Assembly: GCA_020444475.1 (NCBI GenBank)
Contig: JAHLKV010000003.1
Coordinates: 372,001-436,000 of the forward strand
Length of the DNA: 64,000 nt
Source of the DNA: a bacterium
GTDB lineage: Bacteria; Zixibacteria; MSB-5A5; GN15; FEB-12
Direction: 5' to 3'
The stretch's first letter is position 1; each line of letters begins with the position of its first letter. Both the position numbers and the translations under genes were made by a program. Positions 20,141 through 24,381 of the stretch are shown here, in pieces. The notes below the pieces were generated by a model. That model did no database searches and had not been told where the DNA came from. It saw only the letters and a program-made list of their open reading frames with translations.

Positions 20141-20797
20141 ATGAATTCTCCGCTTACATTCGCCGAACAACTGATAAACGCCGGAAGAAGACTCGACACC
20201 AAAGGATTCATCGCCGGCTCCGATGGAAATATCTCCGTCCGCACCGAGGACGGTTCGATCCTGATTACGCCGTCAGGACTGCCCAAAGGACGCCTCGTTC
20301 ATGACGATCTCGTGACCGTTGATCTCGACGGCAAGCAACTGGCGGGAGAACACAAAGCGTCTTCGGAAATGGCCATGCATCTATTCGCCTGCCGACAAAG
20401 GCCCGATATCCGCGCCTGCGTCCATTCGCACCCGCCGTTCGCGACCGCGTCGGCCGTCGCCGGACGCCACCTGCCGTCGGATATCCTCCCCGAAGTAGCG
20501 GTCTTTGTCGGCCCGATCGCCTTGACCGAGTACGCGCCCCCCGGCACCGAAGCCGTCCCGCAGTCGCTGGCGCCGTTTATCGCCGATCACAACGCCTTTC
20601 TGCTGCGCAACCACGGTCTTCTGACGATCGGTCGGACGCTCGATGAAGCCATGAACCGCCACGAAACGGTTGAACAGTTCGCCCGGATATATCATCTCGC
20701 GCTGCAGATGGGAGAAATCGGGAGAATCCCCGAAGATGATGTTGTCAGACTCGAAGAAATACGCCGCAGGCTGACCGAGCGGCCGGACCGACCGTGA
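20141..20797 (+). CDS. class II aldolase/adducin family protein
   Basis: The 218-residue protein is of FucA/AraD type. It has GNISVRTEDGSILITPSG near the phosphate-binding end, the catalytic acid region KASSEMAMHL (Glu), zinc ligands His-x-His in CVHSHPPFATA, and a third His in LLRNHGLLTIG. Such enzymes use Zn2+ for retro-aldol cleavage or epimerisation of sugar phosphates. A pathway is not evident. The upstream open frame to 19937 runs through the promoter and is not coding. It is the first gene of an operon that continues through panB. Confidence 0.88.
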   Translation: MNSPLTFAEQLINAGRRLDTKGFIAGSDGNISVRTEDGSILITPSGLPKGRLVHDDLVTVDLDGKQLAGEHKASSEMAMHLFACRQRPDIRACVHSHPPFATASAVAGRHLPSDILPEVAVFVGPIALTEYAPPGTEAVPQSLAPFIADHNAFLLRNHGLLTIGRTLDEAMNRHETVEQFARIYHLALQMGEIGRIPEDDVVRLEEIRRRLTERPDRP

Positions 20798-20810: not shown

Positions 20811-21992
20811 ATGGTGATCACAAAAGTTCAGCTCGAAAAAGCCAATCGGCTCTTTCAGATGCCGCCCGGCCTCATGTCGTTCGTACGCTCCGAAGAGCGG
20901 AAGGGCCTGCTTCGCCGCGACGACCTGATCGATCTGGCATCCTTCACCTGGCCGGCGGCGCCCGAAGGGAAAGCCCCGAACGCCGCCGCCTTCGAGCCGG
21001 CCGGTCGCGACCAACTCGCTGAATTGCGCGAAGAACTGGCCGCCTGGCTGAACGCCCGCCACGGCTGCCGTATCGCTGCCGATCGTGAGATTTTTATCGG
21101 CGGCTCTATCACCGCCCTCGTCACCATGCTTGCTCTGGCCTTTCTCGACAACGGCGATATTGCCTTCGTCCCGGAACTCGGCCTTCCCAGTTATCGACAG
21201 GCCGTTACCAGCGCCGGCGCCGAACCGGTCAGTTATACCATCTCTGCCAAAACCGGCTGGCTGCCCGACTTCGAGCGTCTCGGAACTCGCCTGGGGCGGG
21301 TCGCCCGACTGGCCTTCATCAACTCACCGCACAATCCAACCGGCCGCGAACTCTCCGAGCAGGAAATGGCCGGTCTCATCTGGACCGCCAGTCGTGAAAA
21401 CCTGCTGGTGGTCAACGATGCCGCGTATCAATCGATCGCCGAAAGACCGCCCATCTCGCTTCTGTCGATCTCCGGCGGGTCTCGGGTAGGCCTGGAGTTG
21501 CACTCCTTCGCCTACTCGCTTGGTCTTCCCCGTCTTCCTTTCGGCTTCGCCCTCGGCAACCGCGAAGCGATCACCACGCTCAAGCAGGTCTCCCGGCTTG
21601 TCCCGACCACCTTCCCGGCCGGATACGTCCAAATGGCGGTTGAGGCCATTCGCGCCTATCCGAACCCGACCATCCGCGCCGCCCGGCAGCAGATCGCCCG
21701 CACCGCCGACCGCGCCCGGGCACTGATGGAACTGCTCGACCTCGAAGAATCAACCCGACGGACGATTCCCTTTCTATGGGCGAGAATACCGTCTCGCCGA
21801 AGCGCGACTGCGCTCGCCCGACAGCTGTTCCGCCGCCACCGCATCCTGACTATCCCCGGCACCGATTTCGGCGACAGTGGCGAAGGCTACCTGCGCCTTT
21901 CACTGACAGCCGGAGAGCAGGCCTACGATGAAGCGGTCTCACGGATCAAAAAACGGCGGCTGATCCGCCCCAGGAAGAGAGGCTCGGAATGA
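20811..21992 (+). CDS. fold-type I aminotransferase-like protein lacking the catalytic lysine
   Basis: The 393-residue protein is clearly of the class I/II aminotransferase type, closest in pattern to LL-diaminopimelate and aspartate aminotransferases. Kept residues are Asn175 in NSPHNPTG, Asp203 and Tyr206 in VVNDAAYQSI, and the carboxylate-binding Arg in GYLRLSL near the C-terminus. The stretch where the family has HS(F/L)SKT...GWRxGFAxGN reads HSFAYSLGLPRLPFGFALGN, so the PLP Schiff-base lysine is Tyr235 and the following Trp-Arg is Leu-Pro. Normal transamination should be impossible. The frame is intact and lies in an operon with a 4-base overlap to folB. Function is unknown. Confidence 0.8.
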   Translation: MVITKVQLEKANRLFQMPPGLMSFVRSEERKGLLRRDDLIDLASFTWPAAPEGKAPNAAAFEPAGRDQLAELREELAAWLNARHGCRIAADREIFIGGSITALVTMLALAFLDNGDIAFVPELGLPSYRQAVTSAGAEPVSYTISAKTGWLPDFERLGTRLGRVARLAFINSPHNPTGRELSEQEMAGLIWTASRENLLVVNDAAYQSIAERPPISLLSISGGSRVGLELHSFAYSLGLPRLPFGFALGNREAITTLKQVSRLVPTTFPAGYVQMAVEAIRAYPNPTIRAARQQIARTADRARALMELLDLEESTRRTIPFLWARIPSRRSATALARQLFRRHRILTIPGTDFGDSGEGYLRLSLTAGEQAYDEAVSRIKKRRLIRPRKRGSE

Positions 21993-22390
21993 GCGATGTT
22001 ATCCGCATGGGAGGGCTGTCGTTCTACGGCTATCATGGCGTGACGGCGGCCGAGAAAGAGACCGGGCGCGTTTTTGAGATCGACTGCGAAATGGAAGTCG
22101 ACCTCGCTCCCCCCGGTAAATCGGATCGCCTCAAAGACACCGTCGACTACTATCGCGTCTATCAGGTTATCCGCGAGTCGGTCGAAGGAACCGCCTTCTC
22201 ACTGCTGGAGGGACTCGCCAATCGCATCGCCACGAATATTCTTGACATGTTTCCCGTCTACCGGGTAACTTTGAAAGTCCGTAAATTGCACCCGCCAATC
22301 CCCGGGCAAGTGAAGTACATCGAAGTCGAAGTCACCCGCCTTCAGGGGGATACGGCCAAACTGACCGATCCCGACAACCAGCCGACATAA
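21989..22390 (+). CDS. folB: dihydroneopterin aldolase
   Basis: The 133-residue T-fold protein catalyses 7,8-dihydroneopterin to 6-hydroxymethyl-dihydropterin plus glycolaldehyde in folate synthesis. Visible residues are Glu22 in HGVTAAEKETG, Glu74 in SLLEGLA (pterin anchor) and Lys99 in KLHPPIPG (catalytic). The ATG overlaps the previous stop (ATGA), so translation is coupled to the aminotransferase-like gene. FolK, the next enzyme of the pathway, follows after ten bases. Confidence 0.93.
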   Translation: MSDVIRMGGLSFYGYHGVTAAEKETGRVFEIDCEMEVDLAPPGKSDRLKDTVDYYRVYQVIRESVEGTAFSLLEGLANRIATNILDMFPVYRVTLKVRKLHPPIPGQVKYIEVEVTRLQGDTAKLTDPDNQPT

Positions 22391-22400
22391 GGGAGTAGCA

Positions 22401-22910
22401 ATGGCTGAAACAGTATATCTTCTGCTGGGCTCCAATCTGGGAAATCGGGAGCGCTATCTCGAGACGGCCCTCGCCAAACTGGCTGAACTCGAAGGGTTCG
22501 AAATCATCGCCACCTCGCCGATCTATCTCTCCGATGCTGTCGAGATGAAGGGGGACAGCCCCTCCTTCCTGAATCAGGTCGTAAAGGGCGACTACCAGTA
22601 TCCCCCGCACGAACTTCTCCACAGCATCGAGAAGATCGAAGCCGATTTGGGGCGCACCGACAAAGGCAACAAGCAGTCCCGCGGGATCGATATCGATATC
22701 CTCCTGTTCGGAGAACGGATCGTCGAGCTCGAGGACCTGCAGATTCCGCACAAGGCCCTGCTGCAGCGTCCGTTCGCAATCATTCCGCTGGTGACAATCG
22801 ACCCGGACATCACCGATCCGCGCACCGGCAAGACACTCGAGAGCTTTGTCGACGATCGCAAGCGCGAAAGCGTCCTGCTGTACAAAGATCATGTCGCACG
22901 CAACGTCTGA
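22401..22910 (+). CDS. folK: 6-hydroxymethyl-7,8-dihydropterin pyrophosphokinase
   Basis: The 169-residue enzyme transfers pyrophosphate from ATP to the FolB product. The family marks LLLGSNLGNRERYLETAL at the start and RGIDIDILLFG in the middle (metal-binding Asp pair) are present, as is HKALLQRPFAIIPL. It overlaps the next gene by 20 bases. No folP or folE gene is visible in the window. Confidence 0.95.
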   Translation: MAETVYLLLGSNLGNRERYLETALAKLAELEGFEIIATSPIYLSDAVEMKGDSPSFLNQVVKGDYQYPPHELLHSIEKIEADLGRTDKGNKQSRGIDIDILLFGERIVELEDLQIPHKALLQRPFAIIPLVTIDPDITDPRTGKTLESFVDDRKRESVLLYKDHVARNV

Positions 22911-23553
22911 GCCGAAATACATAGCGGTCGAAGGCGTCATCGGCGTCGGCAAAACCACCTTCGCCGATATGTTGGCGGAATGCCTCGAGGCGGAGATCAT
23001 TCGCGAAGAAGTCCTCGAAAACCCCTTCCTGGTCGACTTCTACAAGAACCGCAAAAGGCACGCCTTCTCGTGTCAGCTCTTCTTCCTGATCTCTCGCTTC
23101 CAGCAGCAGCAGCAACTCATGGTCCGTGACCTCTTCGCCCAGCGAATCATCGCCGACTACCTCTTCGCCAAGGACCAGATCTTTGCCTCGGTCAATCTCT
23201 CCGAGCGGGAGCTGGCTCTTTACGACAAAATCGCACCCGTGCTCGCGCAGAACATCCCCCGACCGGATCTCGTCATCTACCTGCAGGCATCAACCTCGAC
23301 TCTGCTGCAGCGCATCAAAAAACGAAACCTGCCCTTCGAGCGATCGATTGACAGCGACTATATAGAGAGTGTCAACAAAGCCTACGACTATTTCTTCTTC
23401 CACTACAATGATACTCCACTACTGGTCGTCAAAACCGATGATATCGACTTCGTCAACAACCCGCGGCAATTCGACGACCTGATCGACCAGATTCAAAAGC
23501 CCATCAACGGCAAGATCTACTATGTTCCTTCGGGTGAACTTACCGGAAAGTGA
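22891..23553 (+). CDS. deoxynucleoside kinase (dAdo/dGuo kinase type)
   Basis: The 220-residue P-loop kinase has GVIGVGKTTF near residues 15-24, VLENPFLVDFYKN, the lid-type RIKKRNLPFERSID, and a closing DIDFVNN. It phosphorylates deoxyribonucleosides for salvage. I chose ATG 22891, inside the end of folK, because the P-loop normally lies close to the N-terminus. The 20-base overlap with folK fits the close pairing of these two functions that I recall from Bacteroidetes-like genomes. Substrate choice is not readable. Confidence 0.88.
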   Translation: MSHATSEPKYIAVEGVIGVGKTTFADMLAECLEAEIIREEVLENPFLVDFYKNRKRHAFSCQLFFLISRFQQQQQLMVRDLFAQRIIADYLFAKDQIFASVNLSERELALYDKIAPVLAQNIPRPDLVIYLQASTSTLLQRIKKRNLPFERSIDSDYIESVNKAYDYFFFHYNDTPLLVVKTDDIDFVNNPRQFDDLIDQIQKPINGKIYYVPSGELTGK

Positions 23554-23559
23554 TCAGCT

Positions 23560-24381
23560 ATGTCCTCGATCAAAAAGCGCAGCAAGACGACCGTCCAGAC
23601 GCTCATCCGAATGAAAGCCAGGGGCGAAAAGATCACCATCCTTACCGCCTACGACTACTTCACGGCCCGACTGCTCGATCAGGCCGGCATCGACTCGATT
23701 CTCGTCGGTGACTCGGCCAGCAACGTCATCCACGGACATCAAACGACGATTCCGATGACTATGGACATTATGCTCGCCCACGTCGCGGCCGTCGCACGGG
23801 GCACCGAGCGCGCTCTTGTCATCGCCGACATGCCTTTCCTCTCTTATCAGCCTTCCACCGAGACAGCCATCATCAACGCCGGTCGCTTCCTCAAGGAGGC
23901 CGGAGCCGAAGCCGTAAAAATGGAAGGTGGATTGGAGATGGTCCCGACGGTCAAACGGGTGATAGAATGCGGCATCCCGGTGATGGGACATATCGGACTC
24001 ACCCCGCAGTCGATCCATCGCTTCGGCGGCCCCAAGGTGCAGGGACGCAGAGAGCGCTCCAAAGCCTACCTGCTCGATTCCGCCCAGGCACTGCAAACCG
24101 CCGGCTGCTTCGCGATTGTCCTCGAGTTGATCAGCGCCGAGGTTGCTTCCGAGATTACGGGTTCTCTCAAGACAACCGCCACCATAGGCATCGGCGCCGG
24201 CGCCGGATGCGACGGCCAGGTGCTGGTCATCAACGATATGCTCGGCCTCCGCGATGACTCCTTCAAACCGAAATTCCTGCGTGAATACGCCGACCTGAAG
24301 CCGACCATCTCCGACGCTGTCACCCGCTATATCAGCGAGGTTCGCACCGGCAAGTATCCATCCGATGACGAGTCATACTGA
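23560..24381 (+). CDS. panB: 3-methyl-2-oxobutanoate hydroxymethyltransferase
   Basis: The 273-residue PanB makes ketopantoate from 2-oxoisovalerate and methylene-tetrahydrofolate, the first step of pantothenate synthesis. It has ILTAYDYFTARLLDQAGID, VGDSASNVIHG with a metal Asp, AVKMEGG with the substrate Lys, and LELISAEVA with the catalytic Glu. Being last in the folate operon is sensible because it consumes a folate cofactor. The start lies six bases after the kinase stop. Confidence 0.96.
   Translation: MSSIKKRSKTTVQTLIRMKARGEKITILTAYDYFTARLLDQAGIDSILVGDSASNVIHGHQTTIPMTMDIMLAHVAAVARGTERALVIADMPFLSYQPSTETAIINAGRFLKEAGAEAVKMEGGLEMVPTVKRVIECGIPVMGHIGLTPQSIHRFGGPKVQGRRERSKAYLLDSAQALQTAGCFAIVLELISAEVASEITGSLKTTATIGIGAGAGCDGQVLVINDMLGLRDDSFKPKFLREYADLKPTISDAVTRYISEVRTGKYPSDDESY

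Follow-up and report, generated by a model that had tools for sequence, protein, structure and literature searches.

A DapL-like protein without the pyridoxal phosphate lysine in a conserved folate operon of Zixibacteria

Fold type I subunits that lack the lysine to which pyridoxal 5'-phosphate (PLP) binds are known from SPTLC1/LCB1 and GcvPA, where they are paired with a lysine-bearing paralogue. BacF of Bacillus subtilis (6l1n) is a functional PLP transaminase that takes part in bacilysin synthesis. Rv3778c of Mycobacterium tuberculosis, a PLP-fold protein without the conserved lysine, has been judged likely noncatalytic; the available part of that report describes it as distant kin of cysteine desulfurases, not of LL-diaminopimelate aminotransferase (DapL), and names no folate operon (PMC12910592). 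Here, we describe pseudo-DapL, a DapL-like protein without the PLP lysine, encoded among folate and pantothenate genes in a 64,000-nucleotide stretch of a Zixibacterial genome (contig JAHLKV010000003.1), which we refer to as the window. Pseudo-DapL resembles DapL (TIGR03540/NF006756, PDB 2z1z) in fold, tree neighbourhood, position before folK or folB, and the Asn, Asp, and Arg of the pocket, but it has neither the lysine nor the phosphate-binding arginine. Its score against the DapL models is about 173 bits, with cut-offs of 507 and 593 (173.2 bits for TIGR03540, equivalog cut-off 593.25). It differs from BacF, which is catalytically working, and from the paired subunits above, in that a lysine-bearing match of more than 430 bits to the DapL model is present in just 2 of 26 Zixibacterial genomes (G108 and G109). 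The open-access literature matches listed contain no account of a lysine-less DapL, a Zixibacterial folate operon, or dapL beside folK.

The gene occupies positions 20811..21992 of the window (all features described here lie on the forward strand) as an intact frame of 393 amino acids, and its product belongs to the class I/II aminotransferase family (PF00155, Aminotran_1_2) by both profile score (127.5 bits, cut-off 19.7) and fold. A previous reading made from the DNA letters (the sequence-only reading) had placed a tyrosine at the PLP-lysine position (Tyr235, codon 21513..21515), and the alignments agree. A search that scored 7998 candidates gave 356 relatives, of which we aligned the best 120 with the query: position 235 is Tyr in 118 of these 121 sequences, Thr in 2, His in 1, and Lys in none. 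The order-level set of 39 relatives and the window copy has Tyr, Phe, or Leu at this position. A scan of the phylum returned a match at E <= 1e-30 in 120 of 132 genomes; for some of these, such as G099 and G103, the best match is a lysine-bearing paralogue, and family membership was checked for the loci that were fetched. The 40 class-level loci fetched from this list comprise 36 family members and four lysine-bearing DapL-like paralogues outside the operon. Class-wide, the 76 family members, which are related sequences and hence not independent events, carry Tyr (31), Phe (16), Thr (10), Leu (6), His (4), a gap (3), Lys (1), Asp (1), Ala (1), or other residues (3), so that the Schiff-base lysine of usual PLP transaminases is missing from the query and from all but one of its kin. 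Lysine loss is a family trait, and tyrosine is one of several substitutes. The suggestion that a conserved tyrosine is itself meaningful is not supported, as the family also uses Phe, Thr, Leu, His, and, in the Zixibacterial locus L225, Met.

No other conserved lysine takes over this position. Among the 40 order-level sequences, the best lysine column is residue 4 (33/40), which lies in a low-confidence stretch of the structure model, and we rejected an alternative PLP lysine elsewhere in the protein. Local decay or a sequencing error at Tyr235 was also rejected, given the 121 aligned sequences and the ratio of nonsynonymous to synonymous substitution rates (dN/dS). In the four of twelve pairs with dS < 1, dN/dS is 0.052, 0.096, 0.091, and 0.078, and the view that the gene is under selection rather than decaying is upheld. 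Pseudo-DapL accordingly combines a lost catalytic residue with purifying selection on the gene, as a pseudoenzyme does. Two copies are broken, L181 (G129) being split over two frames and L168 (G079) having an in-frame stop, probably through recent breakage or assembly error. The other enzymes of the operon, AldII (a class II aldolase), FolB, FolK, and PanB, keep their active-site residues across 60, 74, 73, and 67 loci, respectively, with the Ser-x-Glu and three His of AldII present in no fewer than 56 of 60. These residues presumably include the known catalytic ones, and the loss of catalytic residues therefore appears confined, among these genes, to pseudo-DapL.

The sequence-only reading held that all other signature residues of the fold are kept, which is incorrect. 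We compared the 76 family members with 83 lysine-bearing enzymes. Asn175 (codon 21333..21335; 70/76), Asp203 (21417..21419; 71/76), Glu229 (75/76), and Arg362 of the GYLRLSL motif (21894..21896; 76/76) are common to both groups, and Tyr206 is kept in 49 of 76; in the order-level set, Asp203 and Arg362 are present in 40/40 and Asn175 in 39/40. Much of the rest of the pocket has changed. The phosphate-binding Arg eight residues after the lysine accompanies the lysine in all 83 enzymes and is found in 2 of 76 family members, the query having Pro243 (21537..21539) in its place, another departure from the usual PLP transaminase. The stacking Tyr (77/83 lysine enzymes; Leu125 in the query, 21183..21185), the Tyr of the H-x-Y motif (76/83; Pro63 in the query), and the last Gly of the G-S-K-x-G loop (83/83; loop altered in the query) each persist in a minority of the family. 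Four residues are newly fixed: Arg129 (64 of 76), His174 (73), Pro320 (70), and Arg329 (61). We take the roles of Asn175 (PLP O3'), Asp203 (pyridine nitrogen), and Arg362 (substrate carboxylate) to be those of aspartate aminotransferase, and likewise assume from that enzyme the roles of the phosphate Arg, the stacking Tyr, the H-x-Y Tyr, and the G-S-K-x-G loop. By this comparison, the PLP site is dismantled well beyond the loss of the lysine. Ordinary PLP binding by pseudo-DapL is unlikely because the phosphate Arg and the other residues of the cofactor cup are mostly lost, which disfavors the earlier suggestion that the protein binds PLP without transamination.

To place pseudo-DapL among the aminotransferases, we built two quick trees, without full bootstraps, from which the lysine-site columns were left out. 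The lysine-less proteins fall on one side of a branch, beside DapL-like lysine enzymes, with support from the Shimodaira-Hasegawa-like approximate likelihood ratio test (SH-aLRT) of 99 (61 rows) and 100 (34 rows). The 61 lysine-less and eight DapL-like lysine rows together separate from nine other lysine paralogues (SH-aLRT 100, quick tree), consistent with common descent of pseudo-DapL and the DapL-like enzymes. A scan of species genomes, from which we examined the best 80 of 566 relatives, a selection that favors genes resembling pseudo-DapL, gave 76 with Lys and four without. The four are L188, L189, and L225, which are named Zixibacterial, and L190 ("FCB group bacterium"), which has the same operon as the window. 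Among the 76 lysine loci, folK (18) or folB (1) is directly next in 19, in Nitrospirota, Thermodesulfobacteriota, Omnitrophota, Auribacterota, and other phyla. L251, from an unclassified bacterium, has the order DapL-FolB-FolK-dNK-PanB (dNK, deoxynucleoside kinase) with an intact lysine, the same order as in the window, and likely resembles the ancestor. L225 has Met in place of the lysine, keeps the phosphate Arg, and precedes FolB-FolK-dNK-PanB; in the quick tree, it branches closest to the lysine enzymes among the lysine-less proteins. Scores to the DapL model fall in the same order as this staged loss (six proteins and the query were scored), and even the lysine-bearing L251 (463.0) and L118 (441.8), scored as partial frames, lie below the TIGR03540 cut-off.

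Taken together, it is very likely from these alignments and trees that pseudo-DapL is a lysine-less descendant of a DapL-type enzyme and not a normal transaminase, the latter point in line with the sequence-only reading. We infer that the lysine disappeared from a dapL already seated in the operon, no later than in the Zixibacterial ancestor. Descent from a dapL, a gene that often precedes folK, is the likely reason for the location among folate genes. L225 may be a living intermediate, indicating that loss of the lysine from a PLP enzyme, followed by loss of the cofactor cup, may still be compatible with class-wide persistence in one operon. The source name "LL-diaminopimelate aminotransferase" is attached to 10 of the best 120 of 356 relatives, and metabolic reconstructions of Zixibacteria may thereby assign to pseudo-DapL a diaminopimelate (DAP) transaminase activity that it probably does not provide.

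The operon is headed by the AldII gene (20141..20797; PF00596, 170.2 bits), for which we chose ATG 20141 in an open frame that extends back to GTG 19937, and pseudo-DapL starts 13 bases downstream of its end. The stop of pseudo-DapL overlaps the ATG of folB by four bases (21989..21992), as had been noted before. There follow folB, encoding dihydroneopterin aldolase (21989..22390; TIGR00525, 102.4 bits, cut-off 72.15); folK, encoding HPPK (22401..22910; TIGR01498, 108.3 bits, cut-off 54.1); the dNK gene (22891..23553; PF01712, 144.2 bits), for which we chose ATG 22891 in a frame open from TTG 22846; and panB, encoding ketopantoate hydroxymethyltransferase (23560..24381; TIGR00222, 303.1 bits, cut-off 207.55). 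Orthologues beside folB, which the sequence-only reading proposed to seek in Zixibacteria, do exist, and pseudo-DapL stands beside folB and folK in nearly all fetched loci. Across 75 loci, where several absences are contig ends, the fetched stretch contains FolB in 74, FolK in 73, dNK in 70, PanB in 67, and AldII in 60. The dNK gene mostly lies between folK and panB, and between pseudo-DapL and FolB in four loci (L133, L137-L139); AldII sits further upstream in L128, and FolB is 5.5 kb from pseudo-DapL in L115. With starts that a script chose close to the stop, the commonest spacing to folB is -4 (22 of 74 loci), followed by -8 (10) and -1 (6), and at least 38 bases precede folB in 9 of 74, all within the class-level set. 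Strict coupling of AldII and pseudo-DapL was rejected: the fetched stretch showed no AldII in 15 of 75 loci (some of them cut short by contig ends), and AldII occurs without pseudo-DapL in G083, G084, G114, and G115.

Twelve genomes lack a pseudo-DapL match at E <= 1e-30. Nine of these have FolB (G046, G050, G083, G084, G092, G114, G115, G118, and G129, the last with the split copy), and three have no FolB match (G005, G053, and G125). In G092, the end of a pseudo-DapL lies at the contig edge, and the contigs of G046 and G118 stop short of the place of the gene. Clean loss with folB and folK retained has occurred in at least two lineages.

We also asked which neighboring pathway steps are filled in the 26 genomes. 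FolE is found in 23, DHPS in 26, and PanD in 25, and we rejected pseudo-DapL as the filler of a missing step; the window's own assembly (79% complete) gave no FolE match. A core catalytic step is unlikely because the tested folate and pantothenate steps are mostly filled and some lineages do without the gene. Replacement of PabC was also rejected, as Aminotran_4 proteins occur in 25 of 26 genomes, several adjoining a pabB-like gene, and a lyase without the lysine is unlikely in any case. Six of the 26 genomes (G027, G036, G108, G109, G116, and G121), in which DHPS is present, had no match to the pabB model, to which trpE also responds. DapF is matched in 24 of 26 genomes (23 over the cut-off). 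Of these 24, 20 have a further class I/II aminotransferase no more than 500 bases from dapF, and in G042 the distance is 1.1 kb. None is near dapF in G027, G108, and G109, the latter two having a lysine-bearing DapL-like gene elsewhere. The dapF-adjacent aminotransferase is a candidate for a DAP transaminase that would have freed the operon copy, a lead for further work; in G001, this protein (L302) has its top match, below cut-off, to PdxR-like aminotransferase domains. The DapD_Ac model exceeded its cut-off in none of the 26 genomes, in a search that did not extend to succinyl DapD or Ddh.

What does the protein do? We give about an even chance to its being a DapL-derived, noncatalytic, ligand-binding partner of FolB and FolK. 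An ancestral dapL would have stood ahead of folB and folK and lost its lysine first, as in L225, in which the cup Arg is still present; the phosphate cup would have decayed afterwards, and the scaffold with Arg362, Asp203, and Asn175 would have been kept for a phosphate-free, carboxylate-bearing or pterin-like ligand, through which pseudo-DapL would tune or scaffold the folate enzymes of its operon. A phosphate-free ligand is suggested because the carboxylate Arg and the ring-binding Asp and Asn are kept without the phosphate cup, and joint action with the neighbors is suggested because these are constant and the folB junction is tight. Pseudo-DapL is, in this sense, a candidate regulator or partner of folate synthesis. 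A bolder version, which we regard as rather doubtful, holds that a lysine-biosynthesis enzyme was converted in place, class-wide, into a folate partner whose cup-less pocket (Asp203, Asn175, and Arg362) would sense pterin, folate, or an amino acid and set FolB-FolK output, as well as pantothenate synthesis through the need of PanB for methylene-tetrahydrofolate.

Several observations weigh against such a partnership. G083/G084 and G114/G115 have AldII together with the fol genes and leave no space for pseudo-DapL, and G050 has a FolB-FolK-PanB stretch with neither AldII nor pseudo-DapL; because such operons exist, FolB and FolK can do without it. No fusion to a folate gene occurs among the family rows listed, where the longest open frame is at most 486 amino acids. 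Asp203 is replaced by Arg in 4 of 76 members and by Asn in 1, with Arg in family f17, and the kept pocket residues may be retained solely for the fold. The remaining eight dN/dS pairs have dS > 1.5 (dN/dS 0.099, 0.094, 0.088, and 0.173) or are saturated (four pairs). Orthologues with Lys, which the sequence-only reading had counted as evidence against itself, exist in two forms, while 75 of 76 family members lack the residue. One member, L116 (G101), has Lys at the site and Asp at the phosphate-Arg position, and its congener L111 has Thr; this Lys is likely a chance return because L116 has no phosphate Arg. The other is L251, whose long branch lies among other lysine enzymes, apart from the lysine-less group; convergence or transfer may account for its operon.

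The same evidence bears on three other explanations. That the old pocket (Arg362, Asp203, Asn175, and His174) has become a PLP-free active site for a pterin or folate intermediate would fit the invariant Arg362, the newly fixed residues, and the operon shared with folB and folK, and folate enzymes commonly pair an Asp with the pterin ring; we consider it unlikely, as enzymes for most of the tested steps are present, clean losses stand next to intact folB and folK, and family f17 has Arg for Asp203. Similarly improbable is a relic without a biochemical job of its own, retained for translational coupling to folB or as a fold that stabilizes a neighbor. The short or overlapping folB junctions, the clean losses, and the split copy in G129 speak for it, but coupling by itself would not preserve the protein sequence, which the low dN/dS of the four usable pairs and the newly fixed residues indicate is preserved, and nine loci have the wider spacing to folB given above. 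Least probable, indeed quite remote in our estimate, is a PLP or pyridoxamine phosphate (PMP) enzyme or PLP sensor that holds its cofactor without a Schiff-base lysine. Asn175, Asp203, and Tyr206 are kept to the extents given above, and Lys270 mutants of plant DapL were crystallized as external aldimines, according to the titles of the structure entries, but the phosphate Arg, H-x-Y Tyr, G-S-K-x-G loop, and stacking Tyr are gone from most members. L225, with its Arg, could bind PLP.

Beyond the Zixibacteria, lysine-bearing DapL-like genes stand directly before folK in L191, L195, L197-L200, L202, L203, L205, L207, L209, L212, L214, L218, L222, L226, L232, and L261, with the order DapL-FolK-PanB in L203. 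These loci point to a link of dapL-like genes with folK in other phyla. In the Zixibacterial operon, the metal His and Glu residues of the aldolase at its head, present in 60 of 75 loci, resemble those of FucA. As an idea, AldII may use the glycolaldehyde released by FolB.
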